Assembly (NCBI GenBank): GCA_015234045.1
Contig: JADFWU010000014.1
Span: forward strand, 1 to 64,000
Length of the DNA: 64,000 nucleotides
Direction of reading: 5' to 3'
Source of the DNA: Magnetococcales bacterium
GTDB taxonomy: Bacteria > Pseudomonadota > Magnetococcia > Magnetococcales > JADFWU01
Positions 12,407 to 24,168 of the stretch are shown here, piece after piece. The position numbers and the translations under genes were made by a program. How positions within the stretch are numbered: the first letter of the stretch is position 1; each line of letters begins with the position of its first letter. The notes beneath the pieces are model-generated. The model ran no database searches. It was not told the origin of the DNA and worked only from the letters and a program-made list of their open reading frames with translations.

Positions 12407-12566
12407 GATTTTTCGATTCCTTGGTTAGTAAAAAGACATCCTCGTCCAGCGCATATTGACAGATATGCATGGATTCGTGTGTGCTCTCAGGGATGGATAT
12501 CTGCATTTGTCCAGTGTGGTCAAGAACAACAGAGGCAGGAAAACCAGGCAAAAGGAATGGTATCTA

Positions 12567-14414
12567 ATGGATAGCATACGCAACATGAACTTTGGGACCA
12601 AGATTATTCTGACCACCATTATCTTTCTGATAATAGGATTTATGGCGGTTTTCGTCTTTGTCAAGAATCAGATTGAAACCGATGCCATGGATGCCATTGT
12701 AAGGCAGGCACGTTCAGTGACGGTTCAGGCGGAAAGTGCGCGGAACTATGTTGCCAAGCTTGGGTCGGGCGGTAATTTTGATCCAGAATTGCTGGGTGAA
12801 GCCAAAGAGGCTCTGAAAGCCAGCGGTGCGCGCAGCCAGGAAGACATCATTAAAGCAGCACGTAAGACACGCTTTTATGAAACCATTCCCATTGTTGCGG
12901 GTTGGACTATTGGTCAGAAGAAGGCGCGGGATGCCAGTTATGATTTCCGGGTCACACGTATTGGGGCGCGTAATAAAGATAACGAAGCCACGCCATTCGA
13001 ACGTGAAATGCTTGAAAAAATGTCCCGTGAAAATCTGGATGAGCTTTGGTCCATTGATGAGGAAGATAACAGCCTGCGTTACATGCGGCCTGTTGTGTTG
13101 GATAAAGCGTGTATGGTTTGTCACGGCACCGAGCGGGATTATCCAGAGGGCAAGGGCTACGATCCGTTGGGCATCCGCATGGAAGGCTGGAGCTATGGCG
13201 AGCAGCGTGGCGCTTTTGAGGTGATTGCTGATCTGACACCTATGCAGGATTCGGTTCATTCAGTTGTTTTCCAAATCCTTGGGTTGGGTGTGCTGATTCT
13301 ACTGTTGATCGGTGGTACGGTTTACTACATGGTGAACACGCTGGCCATTGGTCCGGTGCAGACCATTCGTGATCTGTTGGTTCGGGTAAGCCAAGGTGAT
13401 TTGACTGTTCAGGTGCCTGAAGCAAAAACCAAGGACGATATCGGACAGGCTGTGAAGGCAACCGGTGAAATGGTTACCAGCCTGCGAGAGATTGTCGGGC
13501 AGGTTCAAGAGACCAACGAACAGGTGCGTGCGCACAGTAGTTCGATGAGTTCCAGTTCTGCGGAGTTGTCAGAAGGTGCCACCAGACAGGCGGCCTCTAT
13601 TGAAGAAACCTCTTCAGCCATGGAAGAGATGAACGCCAATATTCAGCAAAATACTGAGAACGCACAACAGACAGAAGGGCTGTCTAAAAAAGCGTCTCAA
13701 GATGCAGTCGAGACAGGCCAATCGGTGGATGAGGCGGTCAACGCCATGAAACAGATTGCCGAGAAGATCACCATTATCGAAGAGATCGCCCGTCAAACCA
13801 ACTTGTTGGCTTTGAACGCAGCCATTGAAGCGGCACGTGCGGGTGAGCATGGTAAAGGGTTTGCCGTTGTGGCGGCTGAGGTGCGTAAGTTGGCGGAACG
13901 TAGCCAAAGTGCGGCGGGTGAGATTGGTCAACTCTCTTCATCCAGTACGGCCATTTCTGAGCAGGCTGGTGAAAAGCTCTCCAGACTGGTTCCAGACATT
14001 CAGCGTACGGCTGAGTTGGTTCAGGAGATTACCGCAGCGTCAACCGAGCAGTCACATGGTGCGGATCAGATCAACAGTGCCATTCAGCAGTTGGATCAGG
14101 TGATTCAACAGAATGCTGGTGCATCGGAAGAGATCGCAGCGGCAGCCACTGAGCTGTCAGGCATGGCCAATCAGTTGGGTGATGCCATTGGTTTCTTCAA
14201 TCTTGGCAATGCGCCAGCTGGTCGCCGTGCGGCACCAGCCGCCGCAGCACCGGCTCGCCGTCCTACGGCTACAGCAACACCGGCACCGAGGAGGCCTGCA
14301 CCTAAGCCATCCGCAGCGCCGAAAGCACTGCCTGCACCTACACGATCAGCACCAGCCAGCAGCAGTGGTGGTGTTGACCTGAATATGGATGATGATGAGT
14401 TCGAGCGGTTCTAA
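12567..14414 (+). CDS. Methyl-accepting chemotaxis protein with a haem-binding (Tll0287-like/DUF3365) sensor
   Basis: Chemoreceptor of 615 residues. A first membrane segment (about 11-32) leads to a periplasmic domain with a c-type haem motif CMVCH (182-186); the flanking [13 protein letters not shown] and [19 protein letters not shown] match the Tll0287-like (DUF3365) fold. A second membrane segment (about 243-267) is followed by HAMP and a signalling coiled coil with the hairpin tip [30 protein letters not shown]. The C-terminus is an Ala/Pro-rich linker ending DDDEFERF, which looks like a degenerate CheR/CheB docking pentapeptide. It probably senses redox state or a gas. The start at 12567 is chosen because the frame's earlier 37 residues lack family character and AAGGA lies 10 bases upstream. 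Confidence 0.9.
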
Positions 14415-14744: not shown

Positions 14745-16256
14745 CTAGCCGCCGTTAACCCGAGCCACCCAGGCTTCGGCAGATACCTTCATCAGATCAA
14801 GAACCAATCCTGGAAAGAGTCCCAAAACCAGCACGAAAACAGCCAGTGAAATCGCTATGGCCAACTCACGAGGTCGGAGATCTTCAGCCTGGATGATCAA
14901 TCCATAACGTGCGGGTCCCAAAAAAGCCTTTCTGAATAAATTCAACACATAGGCCGCACTGATTACCATGATGCCCAGTGCGGCGAGTCCTGCGCCGGTG
15001 TGGGTCTCCAATGCACTGACAATCATTAGAAATTCAGCCGGAAAACCATTGGTGCCGGGGATGCCTAATCCGGCGATGCAAAGCAGGAAGAAAAATGCCG
15101 AAAACAGCGGTTTGGTAGTGGCCAGTCCGCCAAGGCTGAGAGATTCTGTAGAGCCGGTACGATGGTGTAGAAATCCACTGAGCAGATAGAGCCCGCCCGC
15201 CACAATGGTGAAGTTGACCAACTGAAACAGCGAGCCCTGTATGCCTGACAGTGTAAGAGACGCAAGACTCAAAACTACAAGCCCTACATGGCTGACACTG
15301 GCGTAGGCGAGCATGCTGCGAAGGTTGGTTTGTGCCAAGGCCATCAGGGCACCGTAGATCATGCCTAGTGTGCCTAATCCAGCCAGCAGCCAGTGAAAAT
15401 TGACCGTGGCATCAGGTGTGAGTGGAACCAGATAGCGGATCAATCCATAGACACCCAGCTTCAGACCCGTTACCCACGCAGCGGTGGTTCCACTGCCATC
15501 AATGGCGATGGTGGGTAGCCAGGAGTGGAACGGAAACAGCGGAACTTTGGGTGCAAATCCCAGTAGAAATAGAAAGAACAGCGCGGTTTGCAGCGTAGCG
15601 CTTACCGGTGTGTCGATCAGGGTTGGATAATCAAAATTGAGAAGATAGTCCTGGCCAGAGGCGGTGATGTCTGCATGATTGATAGCCAGCAGTACAAATG
15701 CCAACAGTAATGGAATTCCGCTGGCCAACATATGCAGGGTATATTTGCTGGCCGCATAGCGCCGCCGTGGACCGTGACCCCAGTGACTGACCAGGAAATA
15801 GACCGGTATCAACGTGGTTTCCCAAAATAGAAAAAACAGTATGGTATCCAGGGCGCAAAAGGTGCCCAGCGTGGCTGCGAGCAGGACAAGCAGTAAGCTG
15901 AAATAGAGTCTGGGCATGGCCCGAATACGGGTCCATGAAGAGAGAATAATACCAAGAAACAGCAGGCTGGTCAGTGGCAGGAAAAGCACTGAAATACCAT
16001 CTACACCAACGAAGTAATTGATCTGAAGGGTTGGAATCCAACTGTGTTTTTCAACAAATTGGAATGCGCTGGTCGAGGGATCGAATCCAGCCAGAATCGC
16101 CAGGGTAAAGGCGAGAGTGATCAGCACGGAGATCAGGGCGAGGTGCCGTGCTTTGAATCGGTGCGGCGCAATCCAGATCAGCAGTGTGCCAATGGCCAGA
16201 GTAGACAGCATCATGCTGATCAATGGTAAGCCGTTTTCAATAGGTGTTTCAATCAT
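14745..16256 (-). CDS. NuoM-like proton-channel subunit, last gene of the DAB operon
   Basis: Membrane protein of 503 residues of the NuoL/M/N-MrpA/D antiporter-like family, with about 14 hydrophobic segments. The family's ion-path residues are present: glutamate in LFFLFWETTLIPVYFL, lysine in GFAPKVPLFPFHSWLP, and lysine in TGLKLGVYGLIRY. It lacks the long lateral helix of NuoL. It is the fifth gene of an operon with dabA and dabB, with no complex I peripheral-arm genes nearby, so it is probably part of the inorganic-carbon uptake machine rather than respiratory complex I. Confidence 0.85.
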   Translation of the reverse strand: MIETPIENGLPLISMMLSTLAIGTLLIWIAPHRFKARHLALISVLITLAFTLAILAGFDPSTSAFQFVEKHSWIPTLQINYFVGVDGISVLFLPLTSLLFLGIILSSWTRIRAMPRLYFSLLLVLLAATLGTFCALDTILFFLFWETTLIPVYFLVSHWGHGPRRRYAASKYTLHMLASGIPLLLAFVLLAINHADITASGQDYLLNFDYPTLIDTPVSATLQTALFFLFLLGFAPKVPLFPFHSWLPTIAIDGSGTTAAWVTGLKLGVYGLIRYLVPLTPDATVNFHWLLAGLGTLGMIYGALMALAQTNLRSMLAYASVSHVGLVVLSLASLTLSGIQGSLFQLVNFTIVAGGLYLLSGFLHHRTGSTESLSLGGLATTKPLFSAFFFLLCIAGLGIPGTNGFPAEFLMIVSALETHTGAGLAALGIMVISAAYVLNLFRKAFLGPARYGLIIQAEDLRPRELAIAISLAVFVLVLGLFPGLVLDLMKVSAEAWVARVNGG

Positions 16257-16278
16257 TCAAACTGCTCCTGAGCACCAT

Positions 16279-17793
16279 TCAATGGGTCAGCTGATAGAGA
16301 TTGCCCAGCTCAACCAGGGAGCCATCAGTTAAATGGAACCAGGGCGTGGAGTAGAATCCGGTCACCAGTAGAACCGCGATAACAACGATAGATAAAAGTC
16401 GCTCCAAGGTTCGAACCGGAACCGGATTGACGAATGGTTTATCCGGCTTTTCGCCCATGAACGCCCGTTGAAATGCCCAGAGCAGAAAGCCCGCAGCCGC
16501 CACATTGCCCAGCGCTGCCGGAATGGTTACCACCGCGCCGAACCGCTCAATAGCGGCTTCCAGAATCAGATGAATCGCATCAAAACCGGGCGTGCCCGGC
16601 ATGCCGATGATGGACAGTCCCGCGATGATAAACACTGATCCGATAATCGGAAAAGATTCATACAGTCCACCCAGTCGGGAAATGATCATGGTTCGGGTTC
16701 GGTTCTGAATAAATCCCAAGGTGAAAAACAGACAGGCTACAGCCAGTCCGAAATTGATTGAGAGCATCACCCCGCCTTGAAATGCAGCATGGCCCAGACT
16801 AAATAGTCCGATAATCAAAATACTGGTGTGACTGATCACCGCAAAAGCCAACAGAGAGCGCAAATTCTTCTGAATCAGGGCCAACAGCGTTGCGTAAAAC
16901 ACACCCACAACGGCTATGGTCACCACAGCTGTGTGCCAATGTGTGATCCCTTCGGGGGTGAGTGGAAATACAAATCGGACAAGGCCAAAAATGCCGACCT
17001 TCAAACTCAGTAGGAAGATCGGCGCGACGGCAACGGTGCCATGTTGAATGATTGGTGCCAGCCAGCCGTGAAACGGAAATACCGGAATTCGGATTGATAG
17101 ACCGTAAAAGATCACGAAGAAAAGAATGGATTGATCAACCAGTGGTGCAGGGGTTTTGACCAGATCAAACAGATCAAAGCTCCATGTGCCGCCGGTCATA
17201 TTGCTATGGTTCAGACCGAGCATGATGGTGCCGACAAACAGCAGTACGCCACTGACAAACATAAACTGCATGTAGCGCACAAACGATGCGTTAATCTCCG
17301 GTGATGTGGCCCAATACCAGATCAGATAGCCAACCAGCATCAACTGAAGCCCGGAAACCATCGTGAACCAGAGCAGATCAACCGTAACGAATTGGCTGAT
17401 CAAAGTGGATTCAATGGTTAGTGTCAGTGCCAGGAAACGCCAAGAGGGTTCCATGGGGCGAAGCCGGCCATAGGGAATCAGAATCAGAGTCAGAAAGGAG
17501 GTCAACAGCAGAAAAATAACCGAAACGCCATCAATAGCCGCATGGTATTGGATGGGGCCATAGAGTGTGACCTGTTCGGCAAACTGCATGGCCGGGTTGT
17601 CGGGTTCGTAAAGGCTATACAGCACCACAGTCATCAGAAATACTGACAATGTGCCCATCAATGCCGCTGAAAAGGCGATCTGATAGCGACGCGCATAGGT
17701 GATCAGAATAGCCAGCAACAACGGTACAAGTTGCAGCAGGGCTAAGATCGGTACGCCCAATTGATCAGACCAGAGTAGTTCCTGATAGCTCAT
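16279..17793 (-). CDS. NuoM-like subunit lacking key proton-path residues
   Basis: Antiporter-like membrane protein of about 504 residues, clearly homologous to its neighbours (RIPVFPFHGWLAPI, SLKVGIFGLVRF, GLSIIGMPGTPGF). Where NuoM has the essential transmembrane-5 glutamate (FWE), this protein reads LLWFTMVSGLQLML with no acid. The transmembrane-7 lysine before the FPFHGWL motif is replaced by arginine (GLSIRIP). The later lysine (SLKVG) is kept. This suggests a structural or regulatory subunit with an altered half-channel. The ATG at 17793 is chosen; two in-frame GTG codons lie just upstream (17805, 17802). It begins at the dabB stop. Confidence 0.82.
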   Translation of the reverse strand: MSYQELLWSDQLGVPILALLQLVPLLLAILITYARRYQIAFSAALMGTLSVFLMTVVLYSLYEPDNPAMQFAEQVTLYGPIQYHAAIDGVSVIFLLLTSFLTLILIPYGRLRPMEPSWRFLALTLTIESTLISQFVTVDLLWFTMVSGLQLMLVGYLIWYWATSPEINASFVRYMQFMFVSGVLLFVGTIMLGLNHSNMTGGTWSFDLFDLVKTPAPLVDQSILFFVIFYGLSIRIPVFPFHGWLAPIIQHGTVAVAPIFLLSLKVGIFGLVRFVFPLTPEGITHWHTAVVTIAVVGVFYATLLALIQKNLRSLLAFAVISHTSILIIGLFSLGHAAFQGGVMLSINFGLAVACLFFTLGFIQNRTRTMIISRLGGLYESFPIIGSVFIIAGLSIIGMPGTPGFDAIHLILEAAIERFGAVVTIPAALGNVAAAGFLLWAFQRAFMGEKPDKPFVNPVPVRTLERLLSIVVIAVLLVTGFYSTPWFHLTDGSLVELGNLYQLTH

Positions 17794-17804
17794 ATGGCTC
17801 ACCA

Positions 17805-19358
17805 CTAGAGAATGATCACAAAGGTGATGACAATCATAAAGATCAGATAGCGTGGCCGACTGAGAATCAGATCAATGCGTAACAGTTGATTGCCCAGCAT
17901 TTGCAAACCAGAGAGAAAGTTTTCACCAGTACCTTTCAAAACCATGTGTTTTTCAACCCAGTGTAACAGTGTGGCCACGGTTTGAATCAATTTACCAAAT
18001 ACGCCTTGGCCATAGCCGATATGGCCTTTACGATGGTCGCCGCCCTCAAATTTCATAGCTTGCCACCGTACCAGAGACGAGATGGTGTCCGATTCGCCGG
18101 ACGGAACACCGATGAGTCGATCCACAACCCGTTCTTCGAACATTCTGGTATCCTGAGCCATTTTTCTGGCCGAGTGGGTGAACAGCATATCGCCGATCTG
18201 TTCCAGCCAGAAGCGTTGCTGTGCAGCTGTGTAGAGCCAATGCTGATTGGATAGCCACCTCGGTACGGGTTGGGCAGGTTTGCTGGTCATAAATCCCAGG
18301 GATGGCGCGTGAAACAGCTGCCATGCACGCCAACTGGCATGGGCGGCCATTGCCCAGGCTGCCAGGGTAAACCAACCCATACCACACATGAAAAACATCA
18401 AACCAACCTGTGAAATGGTCGAGAAAATTAAAGCGCTTTTGACATCGCTCTGTACCAGTCCAGAGATCCAACCATAAAACGCTGTTAACAGACCAACGAT
18501 GACCAGTAGGGTCATGATCCAAGGTTCCTGCACCAACAGCGGTGCTAATCGTAGGGTTAGATAGAGTCCGGCATGTACCATTAGAGCGCCATAAAAGATG
18601 GCGCTGGAGGGGGTTGGGCCATCCAAAGCACGTGAAATCCAGGGTGAAAAAGGGAATTGTGCAGATTTGGCCAATGCGGCCAGCATAAATCCGCAGGCAA
18701 TCAGGCTTGTCTGAGAAATAAGGTCATTGCCCAGTTCCAAGGTATGAATCTGATCCCAGGAGACGGATCCCATCCACTTGTATGCCAGAAAAATTCCCAG
18801 AATAAAACCCGCATCCCCAATCCGGTTGGTCACCATGGCGCGTTGGGCGTTGCGGGTGGCTATCGGTCGATCCAACGCATAACCGATCAGTAAAAACGAG
18901 CTCACGCCTGCCAACTCCCAGCCTACAAAAGTCAACACCGCGTTGCCGGATAGGATAATCAACATCATGCTGCCGGCAAACAGGTTCATCACCATCATAA
19001 AGCGCATCATGCCGGCTTCATGGTGTAGATAATTGGTGGAAAAACGCATGGAAATGGTCATGAGTAGCGCAACCAATGTACCGTGCCCAAGGCTCAACCA
19101 ATCCAGCGTAAAGCTGATGGGTACATGATATATGTCGCTTTCAAACCAAGTGCCGACGTCAACTTGACCGGGCAGACCCTGGATAAGGGCGATTACGTCC
19201 AATCCCAGTATAAGTAACAGCACAACAAGCGCACTCAGTGTAGAGAGATGGCCGATTTTTCGTTCATTTATGGAAAATCGACCCACCCGAGCCACAGCAA
19301 TCCAGCCGCCAACCAACCAGGGTAGCAGTGGTATCAAAGCAACCAGAGTCTTAATCAT
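17805..19358 (-). CDS. dabB: DabB-like inorganic-carbon transporter subunit (NuoL family)
   Basis: Membrane protein of 517 residues of the proton-conducting antiporter family. The transmembrane-5 acid is in FVGWELAGVSSFLLIGY, the transmembrane-7 lysine in ALAKSAQFPFSPWISRALDGPTPSS, and a late segment SGLVQSDVKSALIFSTISQVG is typical of the group. The shortened C-terminal half, with a soluble stretch (about 345-470) and a final membrane helix, matches DabB rather than true NuoL. In DAB complexes DabB is thought to supply ion flux that drives one-way CO2 hydration by DabA. It overlaps dabA by eight bases. Confidence 0.88.
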   Translation of the reverse strand: MIKTLVALIPLLPWLVGGWIAVARVGRFSINERKIGHLSTLSALVVLLLILGLDVIALIQGLPGQVDVGTWFESDIYHVPISFTLDWLSLGHGTLVALLMTISMRFSTNYLHHEAGMMRFMMVMNLFAGSMMLIILSGNAVLTFVGWELAGVSSFLLIGYALDRPIATRNAQRAMVTNRIGDAGFILGIFLAYKWMGSVSWDQIHTLELGNDLISQTSLIACGFMLAALAKSAQFPFSPWISRALDGPTPSSAIFYGALMVHAGLYLTLRLAPLLVQEPWIMTLLVIVGLLTAFYGWISGLVQSDVKSALIFSTISQVGLMFFMCGMGWFTLAAWAMAAHASWRAWQLFHAPSLGFMTSKPAQPVPRWLSNQHWLYTAAQQRFWLEQIGDMLFTHSARKMAQDTRMFEERVVDRLIGVPSGESDTISSLVRWQAMKFEGGDHRKGHIGYGQGVFGKLIQTVATLLHWVEKHMVLKGTGENFLSGLQMLGNQLLRIDLILSRPRYLIFMIVITFVIIL

Positions 19359-22300
19359 GGCATACCGCCTCGGGGTGTTGAATCAAGGCGGGCGGTAGAG
19401 GTTGTCGATTACCGCGATACCATTCGGTTGAGTTTTTTACCAAGGGCAGGGTATCGTGGTCGTCTTGCCAGTCAATCCAACCTTTATCTGGTTGAAATGT
19501 TTTTATTTTCGCTGAATCAGGATCTTTGGCTGCCAATAACAGCCAGCCATTGCCCACAAGTTCTTGTAAGGAGGGTTGGCGTTGATAGATGGTGGTAAGT
19601 AGCTCGGTTTTAGCTTCTATCAGAACCAACAGGCGCATGGCTTCATGAATCTCCACCATCTGTTTTGGCAATCCCGTACGTAGATCTGACTCCGTACCAT
19701 CCATCACGCCAAACAGTCCTGTAACGTTATGGGTAATCTTGGAACTGCTGCCCAGATTCTGGTTATCAACGGTGGAGAAATAGTACTCCAGATTAATGCC
19801 TGCGCCTACCGGAGCGGAACTGAGTAGAATTTTCTCTAAAATTGTGCCGTCAGGGTCTTGATCAGGATTGTAGGAGATCAGAAACGCACGACGATCAAAA
19901 AAAACGCCTTGGCTTAATGACCGGCGACCAATAAACGCAGAGGCGTTGGTGGCGTGACCAAACTCTGGTTGCACTTGGCTGATATCATAACATCTGGCTC
20001 GAACATGATTCATCGCCTGTTTCAAGGTCGGATTGTCTGGTGCGGATGGAAATTTCCGACACCGTTCATGGGCCGAGCCATGGGCGGCGACATCCAGATC
20101 TTTCAATAGTTTTTTAAAATTGTCTGCCAATGTGGTGGGAATCAGGTTGGTGTCATACCAGTCAAAGGTTTCATCACCGGTATTGTGTTGGGCACCGATA
20201 AAGCGGGTCGAGTTTGGGATTTCAATCCCTTCTTCACGCAATAATGCCCGTACAACAGAACGATTGGCCATGGCGGCAAACGCCCGCGCATTGGGTCCGC
20301 CGTGACGGCCTGAGCAGGCACCACACTCATAGGCGGCGACATGGGGATTGTTTTGACTGAGGGAACGATGTCCCATGATTACCACCAAAGGGGCAAACTC
20401 GCTGGTGAGTCCAATGGTTCGCAGGACGTTTTCGATGTGATCTGCCTGTTCACGGTCGGTAAAGCCCTTGCGGTTGTTTTCCGGGGTGGCATCAGTGGTG
20501 TCGTCGTTAGCGTTGAGTGTCAACTCAGTGGGCAAGGGCTTTTCTATCCGATTATGGATGGTGCGCACCATCTTCTCATGGGTAAGAGGATTAAAAACCC
20601 GATGGGCAAGTGCTGTCAGCGCAGTTGGCGCGGCCAAAAGTGTTCCCGCTGTTCCGGTCAATAGTTTATGACGGTTTTCGGTCAGTAAAAACGTTTGCAA
20701 ACGCTGCCGCCAGTTACGTCTGGCATCATTGATACGCTTCTGAGCTGCGCCTACAGGTTTGACGGTTTCGCGTACTGTGTGGGATGGTTTTACCACCACC
20801 GGACACAGCGGTGTCGGTGTGGTGTCGTTCAATCCAAACCAGTTGATGGGTAAGCCAAAAAAACCCGATGCGCCCAATGTTTCAATGGCCGGGTTTTGTT
20901 CCTCCAAATGACGGCGGATACCCTCTTCACGGTCATCCATACAGAACACGATCTGTGCTATTGGTGTCTGCGTTCTTGTTTCCCAGTGTCCTCTGTCATG
21001 GTTCTGAATTACGGCGTGAAAAATCTGGTCTCGATAGTGCATTTCATAGGCTTGAAGCCAGATATAGCCGCTTTTCTCTGTGGAAAATGTGTTCAGACAA
21101 TCGAACAGTGCGTTGGTATCCTTGCGGGTTATCTGTCGTACTTGATCACCAGTCAATCCGAGATGTTGAACCAGGCGAAACAGCCGCCATCCCAGACGAT
21201 AGACCAGATCTCCTTTTGGTCCATCCGCTGCGGGTGAGTGACGCCATGTCCAGATCTCATAGGCCATGCTGCGCCACTCTTCCTGGCTGGGTTGGTGTTC
21301 TTTGCGGCGATTGATTAATCCATGGGCGCGATTGATGGCGTATTCTGGCAGGCGATGGTTGAATAGCGTGTAGCGCACCAGAAATTCTTTTCGATTATGG
21401 TGAAAATAGTCGCTCAATAGATCAAGATCAGGTCCAACATCCCATGTTTCACGGCACAGACGAAGTGCAAAAATGCGTTCCAGAATCAATCGAACAGCCA
21501 GATAGTCCATTATGTCGATGGATGCATCTTGTCCCTGATAATTGGGTTTGCCCTGACGCCACATGAACATGCCGGAGAAGCCGGGTAACTCCAGTGCGAT
21601 ACGTTCCAGGTAGCTGACCCAAAGATCACGCGGTAGCGCCCGGTGTTCCAACTCAGAAACCACCACGCTCAAAGCGTCTTCAGGTAAGGCATCAAGGAGT
21701 TCCCACCAATCTGATAACGCTTCAAAGATCCAGGCTAGATCCCGTTTCGCGCTCTCTTTCCAGTTGGCAAGAAATCCTTTGTCACGTGATTGGGCGTGCC
21801 AAGCAGCAATACCGAGATCCATATGATTGGAGAGTTGCCGCGTCAATAATGGGCGGATCTCATCCATGATGTCTTCGCCAGTCAAGGCGATCAGCATGCC
21901 GCGAAGCGTGAGGTTTGGTCCTACCTGTTCCATAAGAGAGTTGATCAGCGCGCGGGCTTCCCGTTTCATTTGACGCTGGACGTGAAATTCCTGGTTTTGC
22001 GTCTGTGCTGACTGTTCGGCATAAATCTCAATAAAGGCTTCCGCTTGATCGGGTGACAGATCAAGCAACTCTTCGGGATGCAGGCTATGATGCTTTATGT
22101 CGAGCGCATCCAAACAGGCGGACCAAAGATCCCGGGTGATCTCTGCTTCAGAATCTTCATTGCCACCGCCAAGCAGTTGCTGGCGGACCTCCTGTGGTAG
22201 ATCGCTTTGTAATCTGTCCAGTGCGCCCATTTCCTCTATCTGCCAATTCAACTGACTGGCGGTGACGGATTTAAAGGGAAAACGCAGACTGCATAGATAG

Positions 22301-22650
22301 ATTTCGCGCTGAAGAATCTGTCTATCTCCGATGGTAATAACCGGTTTGTCTGGTTCGAGTGCTGGGCTGTTGTCAAGAGTGTCGGTGAGATCTTTTAGGG
22401 TGATACGGCCTTGGTTAAATAGGGTGCGAAAGTGCGTTTTTGGGAGATAGGCGGAGATGCCGGTGCGCTTTTTAAGTTCTTCCAGTGCTTTTTCAAAATG
22501 AAGATGTTGGTAGCCGTGCAACGTGTTGTGATGGACAAAATCCCGCAATGGTGCTTGAGCAGGCAATATATGCTCAAAATGGGCCACCGCTTCACGCAAC
22601 CACTGGTGGTTGTGTTTATGAATTTTGGGTGTCTCTGTTACAGGAATCAT
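19351..22650 (-). CDS. dabA: DabA, DUF2309 carbonic-anhydrase-like subunit (long form)
   Basis: Large soluble or peripheral protein of 1099 residues. DabA proteins bind zinc and are distantly like beta-carbonic anhydrases; with DabB they form an energy-coupled CO2-to-bicarbonate converter. The proposed zinc site is complete: C570 and D572 in IVFCMDDREEGIRR, H761 in MGHRSLSQN, and C776 in AAYECGACSGRHGGPNAR. The C-x-D spacing and the 15-residue H-to-C spacing equal those I recall for the Halothiobacillus protein. The N-terminal PLRDFVHHNTLHGYQH signature is also present. The protein is longer than the ~830-residue Halothiobacillus form. It sits second in a five-gene operon with four membrane subunits. 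No Rubisco or carboxysome genes are in the window. Confidence 0.93.
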   Translation of the reverse strand: MIPVTETPKIHKHNHQWLREAVAHFEHILPAQAPLRDFVHHNTLHGYQHLHFEKALEELKKRTGISAYLPKTHFRTLFNQGRITLKDLTDTLDNSPALEPDKPVITIGDRQILQREIYLCSLRFPFKSVTASQLNWQIEEMGALDRLQSDLPQEVRQQLLGGGNEDSEAEITRDLWSACLDALDIKHHSLHPEELLDLSPDQAEAFIEIYAEQSAQTQNQEFHVQRQMKREARALINSLMEQVGPNLTLRGMLIALTGEDIMDEIRPLLTRQLSNHMDLGIAAWHAQSRDKGFLANWKESAKRDLAWIFEALSDWWELLDALPEDALSVVVSELEHRALPRDLWVSYLERIALELPGFSGMFMWRQGKPNYQGQDASIDIMDYLAVRLILERIFALRLCRETWDVGPDLDLLSDYFHHNRKEFLVRYTLFNHRLPEYAINRAHGLINRRKEHQPSQEEWRSMAYEIWTWRHSPAADGPKGDLVYRLGWRLFRLVQHLGLTGDQVRQITRKDTNALFDCLNTFSTEKSGYIWLQAYEMHYRDQIFHAVIQNHDRGHWETRTQTPIAQIVFCMDDREEGIRRHLEEQNPAIETLGASGFFGLPINWFGLNDTTPTPLCPVVVKPSHTVRETVKPVGAAQKRINDARRNWRQRLQTFLLTENRHKLLTGTAGTLLAAPTALTALAHRVFNPLTHEKMVRTIHNRIEKPLPTELTLNANDDTTDATPENNRKGFTDREQADHIENVLRTIGLTSEFAPLVVIMGHRSLSQNNPHVAAYECGACSGRHGGPNARAFAAMANRSVVRALLREEGIEIPNSTRFIGAQHNTGDETFDWYDTNLIPTTLADNFKKLLKDLDVAAHGSAHERCRKFPSAPDNPTLKQAMNHVRARCYDISQVQPEFGHATNASAFIGRRSLSQGVFFDRRAFLISYNPDQDPDGTILEKILLSSAPVGAGINLEYYFSTVDNQNLGSSSKITHNVTGLFGVMDGTESDLRTGLPKQMVEIHEAMRLLVLIEAKTELLTTIYQRQPSLQELVGNGWLLLAAKDPDSAKIKTFQPDKGWIDWQDDHDTLPLVKNSTEWYRGNRQPLPPALIQHPEAVCHD

Positions 22651-22707
22651 AATCGGTTTCTGTCTCAGGGGCTGAAGGGGTGACTTGTCTGTCTTAGGTG
22701 TTTGCCT

Positions 22708-24168
22708 CTATTGAATAAATAAAGTGCTGAATTGTGTCACAGACGCAGTGAATAACGATACTGTCGGTGCCGGATAAATCCCAATAACGATAATACTCAC
22801 AGCTAACGTCCCAACAGCGATAAGTTCATGTGGTCTAAGATCATCAATATTCCGAATGGATGGTCGTACCGGACCGGTAAAAAGGCGGCCAATCGTACGC
22901 AGTGCATAGGCTGCACTGATGATTACACCCAGTGCCAGAATTGATGCAGACCATCCCCATTGCTGAAACCCACCGATCAACGTGTGCAATTCGGCAATAA
23001 AGCCTGCTGTACCCGGTAGGCCCGTGCCTGCAACCAGTGCCAACACGGTAAACAGTGCAAAACGCGGTGTGATCAGTACCAGGGAGCTATAGTCACCAAT
23101 GTCACGCGTATGTGTGCGTTCATAAAGCAGACCAATCAGCAAAAAAAGGCTGCCCGCCACCAATCCATGGGCAACCATCTGCAATACCGCACCCGTCATG
23201 CCGATGAGATTGAACGAGGCAATTCCCATCAGAACCACGCCCATATGACTGACTGAAGCGTAGGCAATCATCCGTTTAAGGTCTCGTTGTCGCCAAGCCA
23301 GCAGACCACCGTAAATCAATCCGATCAGTGCCAGTGCATAGAGCATATCCTGAAATGCTAATGCTGCTGTTGGCAGTGTCCCAGAGATTCGGATCAATCC
23401 ATAGGCCCCCATTTTTAACAGGATGCCGGAGAGCAGGATACTGACAGGACTCGGTGCTTCCACATGGGCCAAGGGTAACCAGCCATGAATCGGAAAAACA
23501 GGCATTTTGACACCAAATCCGATTAAAAAACCTAAAAAGACCAATATCTGTGTATCCAATGGCAGAGTCTTAGCACCCAAGGCGATAGCGGACATCTCGA
23601 AACTACGGTTTGGTGAAGCATCAAAAAGAACCAATAGGCTGATCAGCATGAATACCGAACCGCCCAGAGTGTAGAGCATGAAGTTGATGGATGCGCCGTG
23701 TCGATTGGGTCCGCCCCAAAAGTTGATCAGGAAAAACAGCGGAATCAGCGTCACTTCCCAGAACAGGTAGAATATGGCCCAATCCCGCGCCATAAACACA
23801 CCAAGGGTCGCGGTCTCAAGCACCAACATCAGCATGTAATAGCCTTTGATCGGCCTGCGAACGCCTTTGGATGCTAACAAGGAGACAAAGCATAACAGTG
23901 CGGTCAGTAGCACCATTGGGTAGGAAAAACCATCAATGCCCAGGGCATAGGATGTGCCCAAATGGGTGTTCCATTGAAGGTGTTCAACGAATTGAAGCGT
24001 GGCAACGGTGGTATCAAACAGAAACCAAAGCCATCCTGCCAAACCCAGTGCAAGCCCGCTGTGTAGGAGGGCAATTCGACGGATTAGCGTATACTGTCTT
24101 GGAGAGAGTAAAAAAATAATACCCATGCCGAACAGTGGAATGCCCAACAATAGGGAAAGATAACTCAT
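22708..24168 (-). CDS. NuoM-like proton-channel subunit, first gene of the DAB operon
   Basis: Membrane protein of 486 residues from the ATG at 24168, which has AAGGA five bases upstream; the longer frame to 24348 has no family character. Path residues are intact: FYLFWEVTLIPLFFL (Glu), GVKMPVFPIHGWLPLAHVEAP (Lys), LLKMGAYGLIRI (Lys). The PVSILLSGILLKMG stretch is the NuoM/NdhD signature, and this protein is the most canonical of the three NuoM-like subunits. It lies 57 bases upstream of dabA on the same strand. Without peripheral-arm genes it probably serves the DAB complex. Confidence 0.86.
   Translation of the reverse strand: MSYLSLLLGIPLFGMGIIFLLSPRQYTLIRRIALLHSGLALGLAGWLWFLFDTTVATLQFVEHLQWNTHLGTSYALGIDGFSYPMVLLTALLCFVSLLASKGVRRPIKGYYMLMLVLETATLGVFMARDWAIFYLFWEVTLIPLFFLINFWGGPNRHGASINFMLYTLGGSVFMLISLLVLFDASPNRSFEMSAIALGAKTLPLDTQILVFLGFLIGFGVKMPVFPIHGWLPLAHVEAPSPVSILLSGILLKMGAYGLIRISGTLPTAALAFQDMLYALALIGLIYGGLLAWRQRDLKRMIAYASVSHMGVVLMGIASFNLIGMTGAVLQMVAHGLVAGSLFLLIGLLYERTHTRDIGDYSSLVLITPRFALFTVLALVAGTGLPGTAGFIAELHTLIGGFQQWGWSASILALGVIISAAYALRTIGRLFTGPVRPSIRNIDDLRPHELIAVGTLAVSIIVIGIYPAPTVSLFTASVTQFSTLFIQ

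Follow-up and report, generated by a model that had tools for sequence, protein, structure and literature searches.

A contig of a Magnetococcales bacterium (GenBank assembly GCA_015234045.1, contig JADFWU010000014.1; positions 1 to 64,000 of the forward strand were analysed and are called the window) carries five open reading frames (ORFs) in one tight run on the minus strand at 14745-24168. In the order of transcription they encode the NuoM-like protein M1, the zinc subunit DabA, the NuoL-like subunit DabB and the NuoM-like proteins M4 and M5. We consider it likely, with a probability of about two in three, that the five genes specify a single membrane complex, an extended DAB/DAC inorganic-carbon pump which would use the energised membrane to convert CO2 to bicarbonate. 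This extended DAB represents a little-studied version of a CO2 pump that is already known, not a new kind of system. It was compared with DAB2, the DabA2-DabB2 pair of Halothiobacillus neapolitanus (PDB 9rd0), which binds CO2 and is regarded as a CO2 hydratase driven by the proton-motive force (PMC13144422).

A fixed five-gene operon

The sequence-only reading of the window had described a co-directional run of a NuoM-like gene, DabA, DabB and two more NuoM-like genes, and the ORFs together with the Pfam and NCBIfam matches bore this out. M1 (22708..24168, 486 amino acids), DabA of the extended type (19351..22650, 1099 amino acids), DabB of the extended type (17805..19358, 517 amino acids), M4 (16279..17805, 508 amino acids) and M5 (14745..16256, 503 amino acids) follow each other with spacings of +57, -8, -1 and +22 nt. 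PF10070 matched residues 23-1037 of DabA with 777.6 bits, and PF00361 scored 230 bits in M1, 135 in DabB, 121 in M4 and 175 in M5. The NuoM model TIGR01972 with its cut-off of 264 bits was passed by M1 (488 bits), M5 (419 bits) and M4 (271 bits); DabB is NuoL-like. These assignments were complemented by AlphaFold2 (AF2) models of DabA and DabB, by the hydropathy of DabB and by residue censuses of homologues of all five subunits.

No gene of a complex I peripheral arm or quinone module was found in the operon or among the scanned neighbour genes, in line with the sequence-only reading, and the NuoL/M/N genes of this genome sit on a separate contig, C33. The five-gene operon contains neither NuoA/H/J/K nor the small Mrp subunits MrpB/C/E/F/G, and no further co-directional gene of at least 90 amino acids fits between the ORFs. 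Scanning the locus for promoters and terminators gave counts no higher than those in shuffled sequences.

A search across genomes for dabA-dabB with three nuoM homologues in fixed order showed that the order recurs in several groups. The 80 best named relatives were read for gene order; they come from Magnetococcales, Methylococcales, Nitrosomonadaceae, Nitrotoga, Thiothrix, Thiodiazotropha, Competibacteraceae and further Gammaproteobacteria. The exact order M1-DabA-DabB-M4-M5 was present in 50 of them, some deviated by an additional copy, a split frame or a fused gene, and in most of the remainder a contig end truncates the cluster. Nearly all Magnetococcales clusters that were read at length share the order of the window, across many families, and the nearest relatives of its genome in the genome set are related at the level of the order only. 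The fixed order was also found in Methylococcales, Nitrosomonadaceae and sulphur oxidisers. About 350 Pseudomonadota genomes sampled outside Magnetococcales contained dabA in about 33 cases and the extended set in only one, thus the extended set is a minority type. Viral contigs yielded no relative, and on plasmids the only hits were DabA relatives with a query coverage below 80%. In a Thiothrix cluster (L106:9935-21894) the cassette also contains a second, tandem DabA-DabB pair, whose DabA sits on a longer branch.

In phylogenetic trees, with support by the Shimodaira-Hasegawa-like approximate likelihood-ratio test, M1 (100), M4 (100), M5 (98), the extended DabB (100) and the extended DabA (97) each formed a clade. 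M4 and M5 were sisters (92) and the three M groups joined the NuoM of the genome (99), while DabB grouped with the DabBs of two-gene systems and with NuoL. Sister to the extended DabA, with support of 97, is a two-gene type found in Nitrosomonas mobilis, Methylomicrobium and one further genome, and the remaining short DabAs that were sampled made up a group apart. With the order found again in dozens of genomes and each subunit a clade of its own, the five-gene arrangement is far beyond chance. Most simply, the trees can be read as a DabAB-like pair that gained three NuoM-derived subunits, after which the set has stayed together. A cluster of the sister type (L191:110-5719) encodes a DabA of 995 amino acids, a DabB of 440 amino acids and a protein of 433 amino acids, whose family was not assigned, in one run.

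Among 48 Magnetococcales genomes M4 (above 380 bits) was present in all 34 genomes with dabA and in none of the 14 without it. Because related genomes are not independent, cases in which the operon has broken up weigh more, and the set was retained after break-up in nine genomes. In family f4 of the Magnetococcales dabA stands alone behind a chemotaxis-like gene, and M1-M5-DabB-M4 form one run on another contig. In seven further genomes, which include the six Competibacteraceae described below, dabA is apart from some or all of its partners, and DabB and M4 are carried elsewhere in all of them. Several broken-up genomes have M5-like and M1-like copies, assigned by score only, on yet other contigs. 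Scattering of the NuoM genes in relatives had been named in advance as an outcome that would speak against a common machine. Scatter was seen in the physical sense only; the genes that were checked are still kept.

In six Competibacteraceae DabB and M4 are a single reading frame of about 1045-1069 codons, which is interrupted in one; for four of the six it was verified that both halves find their matches. Fused frames of 1000-1045 codons lie at L122:13317-16436, L124:14415-17552, L125:10577-13708 and L109:11566-14565. Taken together, retention after break-up and the DabB-M4 fusion strongly hint at a joint action of the proteins and at contact between DabB and M4.

Channel residues, zinc site and carbon-related neighbours

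M1 has all four ionisable residues of a NuoM channel, i.e. E138 in transmembrane helix (TM) 5, K221 in TM7, K252 in TM8 and E393 in TM12, and so does M5 with E146, K237, K266 and E408. The censuses of 93 M1 and 77 M5 homologues found the Glu/Lys/Lys/Glu set intact wherever the residue aligned. M4 of the window has S151 for the TM5 Glu, R239 for the TM7 Lys and I411 for the TM12 Glu. Across 82 M4 homologues the TM5 Glu is replaced by Ser, Cys, Ala or Thr in nearly all, the TM7 Lys by Arg in 81/81 and the TM12 Glu mostly by Val, Ala or Ile; the TM8 Lys and H412 beside the TM12 position are invariant, and D409 is nearly so. Judged by these residues only M1 and M5 retain the full NuoM channel, since M4 has neither the TM5 nor the TM12 Glu and carries Arg for the TM7 Lys. 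The conservation of the replacements argues that M4 is under selection and specialised, not decaying, and the idea of a pseudogene or an assembly artefact was dropped. One M4 copy in another genome (G043:C259:34384-35868) has an in-frame TAA, which may be an assembly error or mark a decaying copy.

The complete zinc site of DabA claimed in the sequence-only reading was confirmed by alignment with DAB2, the roles of whose residues are taken from PMC13144422. C570 (codon at 20941..20943 of the minus strand, like all codons given here), D572 (20935..20937), H761 (20368..20370) and C776 (20323..20325) align with C351, D353, H524 and C539 of DAB2, and R574 (20929-20931) aligns with R355, so that the Asp-Arg dyad of D572 and R574 is intact too. 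In the residue census this Cys-Asp-Arg-His-Cys site was kept in 103-104 of 104 DabA homologues; the ligands C570, H761 and C776 are invariant and D572 is present in 103/104. H899 (19954..19956) aligns with L658 of DAB2 and is His in 103/103 extended DabAs. This is the position where canonical beta-carbonic anhydrases (beta-CAs) carry Gln or His, and the DAB2 authors tie Leu658 to a low basal activity (PMC13144422).

The AF2 model of DabA (predicted local distance difference test, pLDDT, 84.1) had the beta-CA CsoSCA as its best PDB match, with Z 10.3 and a root-mean-square deviation of 4.6 over 312 residues, and other beta-CAs matched the predicted model at Z 5-8. The model thus predicts a beta-CA-like fold for DabA. 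DAB2 (9rd0) was not among the matches; the fold library ends in April 2026 and nothing is concluded from this absence. A hydrophobic helix of DabA, residues 663-686 (20593..20664, minus strand), which emerged from alignment, hydropathy and the AF2 model, is probably the membrane finger.

DabB is built of NuoL-like TM1-11, a segment resembling the lateral helix and the last TM, and by hydropathy and AF2 model it is devoid of TM12-15 of NuoL. In the model (pLDDT 85.7) residues 2-420 align with residues 1-574 of Escherichia coli NuoL, with Z about 45 and 3.1 A over 412 residues; the alignment passes over some 150 residues of NuoL, which by the hydropathy profile correspond to TM12-15. The helix of residues 385-416 (18111..18206, minus strand) falls on the region of the lateral helix HL. 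Its sequence match in hhalign was weak (E 0.07, a single template row), so the lateral helix is a feature of the predicted structure. E148 (18915..18917, minus strand), the equivalent of the ion-pair residue E144 of NuoL, is kept in 92/93 DabB homologues. DabB2 of DAB2 has Ile151 there, a change that its authors tie to a stabilised open state (PMC13144422).

Genes next to the extended cluster fit inorganic-carbon metabolism. A SulP-family gene (PF00916 plus STAS) lies directly upstream of M1, co-directional with it, in at least 16 distinct clusters (L107, L123, L097, L104, L066, L072, L057, L059, L070, L060, L139, L117, L113, L127, L165 and others); none was found among the scanned genes of the window. 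The SulP family includes bicarbonate transporters (PMC10880623). In five Nitrosomonadaceae a CsoSCA-like gene follows just downstream of M5 (L157:10094-11155, L142:10393-11463, L155, L149 and L162), and in L113, L117, L127 and L111 such a gene is convergent with the extended cluster. The protein, from Nitrosomonadaceae and Thiodiazotropha, is free-standing, has 350-374 amino acids and matches PF20686, the CsoSCA catalytic domain, weakly but above the cut-off; it may be related to CsoSCA without belonging to the usual family. As a complementary marker beta-CA (PF00484) was of no use, because it is absent from the genome of the window and common in relatives with dabA, i.e. there was no clean either/or pattern.

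The proposed complex and rival readings

In the complex that we propose DabA would be a buried, zinc-dependent beta-CA-like enzyme, hydrating CO2 at the cytoplasmic side of the membrane to give bicarbonate, and would be carried by DabB, a shortened NuoL. The three NuoM-derived subunits would lengthen the membrane part into a row like the membrane arm of complex I without the redox arm. Ions, most likely protons, would enter down the membrane potential via DabB, M1 and M5 and render hydration one-way, and M4 beside DabB would most likely be a coupling or transmission subunit, not an ordinary channel. For the row we predict M1-M5-M4-DabB, with DabA seated on DabB, because of the DabB-M4 fusion, the adjacency of M1 and M5 in f4 and the sister relation of M4 and M5. 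Least certain is the passage of more than one ion per CO2. We tentatively go a step further, at somewhat less than even odds, and suggest that this redox-less array acts as a multi-ion, potential-driven carbonic anhydrase, in which at least two full NuoM channels and DabB serve each CO2 hydration and M4 is the coupling module that replaces the finger glutamate of DAB2.

The sequence-only reading had likewise suggested a larger, five-subunit machine, perhaps with several proton channels per CO2. The larger machine is well supported by the fixed order, the co-occurrence of M4 with dabA, the nine break-ups and the fusion, from which we infer a single complex. The second suggestion is supported in part only: M1 and M5 keep all key residues, M4 has lost the TM5 and TM12 Glu and has Arg for the TM7 Lys, and DabB is without TM12-15.

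Several points weigh against the extended pump as proposed. The co-inheritance of M4 and dabA is partly shared ancestry. The finger residue Glu444 is essential in DAB2 (PMC13144422), and no conserved acidic residue was found at its position in the aligned region of 103 DabA sequences, where the alignment is loose. DabB has no counterpart of NuoL TM12-15, and its homologues carry throughout Tyr at H260 and Arg at K347 of DAB2. Residue 336 of DabB (18351-18353), equivalent to H339 of DAB2, is Ala in the window; among the homologues it is His in 83/93 and Tyr in 9/93. No biochemistry on the five-gene type was found in the literature. RuBisCO (PF00016) was detected in none of the 48 Magnetococcales genomes, which led us to reject a RuBisCO association, and a consumer of the bicarbonate was not identified here; bicarbonate would therefore feed another route, possibly the reductive tricarboxylic acid cycle, which is known from Magnetococcus. 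Because DabB is without TM12-15 and DabA without the finger glutamate, coupling must, as far as the alignments reach, differ from that in the DAB2 structure, whose proton path appears not to be conserved in the extended type.

In one rival reading the NuoM-like subunits would be no more than a scaffold or gate in the complex; a single proton per CO2 would pass, by way of DabB as it does in DAB2, and the additional subunits would tune the opening or sense the potential. M4 has lost canonical channel residues, DabB has no NuoL-type second half-channel, and DAB2 works with one membrane subunit (PMC13144422). Yet pure scaffolds would not need the four ionisable residues that M1 and M5 keep wherever they align, and we regard this explanation as unlikely, if worth bearing in mind. 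Less plausible still is a division of labour, in which DabA-DabB is the CO2 pump and M1, M4 and M5 are a separate, co-expressed Mrp-like antiporter balancing pH or sodium during carbon uptake. The homology of the M subunits to antiporter subunits and the physical separation of dabA from the M genes in f4 would agree with it, but in f4 itself DabB has remained beside the M genes although dabA has left, DabB and M4 are fused in Competibacteraceae, the operon has no small Mrp subunits, and M4 never occurs without dabA in Magnetococcales.

The reaction of a beta-CA-like enzyme yields little free energy, which is one reason why we hold it very improbable that the system runs in reverse, with an exergonic DabA reaction driving ions out and building the membrane potential. 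That direction was proposed from gene neighbourhoods in 2017 with COGNAT (PMC5700660), and M1 and M5 do look like intact pump subunits; on the other hand, DAB2 and MpsAB of Staphylococcus aureus act in the supply of dissolved inorganic carbon and can replace carbonic anhydrase (PMC13144422; PMC6689103). We give the least credit of all to the view that DabA of the extended clade acts on a substrate other than CO2, e.g. carbonyl sulfide (COS) or a different carboxyl group. Reuse of beta-CA folds for COS and CS2 is known, and the missing RuBisCO of Magnetococcales would suit such a role, but hardly any variation is seen in the zinc ligands, the Asp-Arg dyad or the His at the transition-state position, and the SulP and CsoSCA-like neighbours point to inorganic carbon.

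Flanking genes and relation to known systems

The scanned genes that flank the operon are unrelated and include a TRAP transporter, a heme-sensor-like methyl-accepting chemotaxis protein, a VWA protein, tryptophan synthase and others. A methyl-accepting chemotaxis protein with a Tll0287-like sensor domain (12456-14414) is convergent with the operon. Two loci of similar make-up in the same genome, G000:C51:100286-104279 and G000:C95:2487-6499, each hold three other PF00361 subunits, and a third locus (G000:C27:22275-24772) has two other PF00361 subunits.

The extended type shares with DAB2 a PF10070 zinc subunit whose ligands and dyad are identical, the pairing in an operon and a NuoL-like partner with the conserved TM7 Lys, the R/D ion-pair residues and S256. 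It differs by five subunits versus two, a DabA of 1099 versus 870 amino acids and the residues described above (His for L658, no Glu444, and Glu, Tyr and Arg for I151, H260 and K347) as well as by the shortened DabB, and the two belong to separate deep clades. MpsAB is a two-gene relative with the same domain pair; it is without NuoM-like subunits, and sodium coupling is argued (PMC6689103, PMC8552792). In cyanobacterial NDH-1MS (CupA on NdhF3/NdhD3/NdhB) a zinc-containing, CO2-hydrating subunit also sits on a NuoL-type subunit that ends a row of antiporter-like subunits (PMC6981117). CupA, however, is alpha-helical, unlike a beta-CA or the PF10070 subunit with its beta-CA-like model, and NDH-1MS is driven by plastoquinone reduction with a full complex I core, which is absent from the extended DAB. 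Mrp antiporters and the complex I arm likewise have a row of homologous antiporter-like subunits, M1, M4 and M5 going with NuoM and DabB with NuoL, but the extended operon is without the small Mrp subunits, NuoA/H/J/K and the peripheral arm.

The sequence-only reading had left room for extended clusters being catalogued already, and this was so. In 2017 NuoM neighbours of ybcC/dabA were published with COGNAT, with the suggestion that more membrane genes would mean more ions (PMC5700660). Clade C of its ybcC/COG3002 neighbourhoods, with ybcC/dabA upstream of a nuoL homologue and COG1008 NuoM and COG0659 SulP as neighbours, is most likely the same gene cluster as the extended DAB; in the window, too, ybcC lies upstream of nuoL with a COG1008 neighbour. 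The main text of that paper treats it as a short application example, without subunit roles or an analysis of channel residues, and proposes the opposite energetic direction (PMC5700660); work on DAB2 and MpsAB after 2017 favours uptake. The present analysis adds a wide, fixed cassette whose genes are retained jointly even after break-up, the DabB-M4 fusion, a specialised M4 and a DAB2 coupling path that is not conserved in the extended type. No published account of these points was found in the literature searched, which excludes most subscription journals and bioRxiv.

The five-gene set is conserved in autotroph-rich bacterial groups. If the five subunits act together, the antiporter building block of complex I would be coupled to hydration without any electron transfer. 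The extended DAB would then offer an independent system for two questions long argued in complex I research, the number of ions per antiporter-like subunit and the cross-talk of distant subunits. It would also be an extra CO2-concentrating route for ammonia oxidisers, methanotrophs and the Magnetococcales, the last being the group in which no RuBisCO was found.

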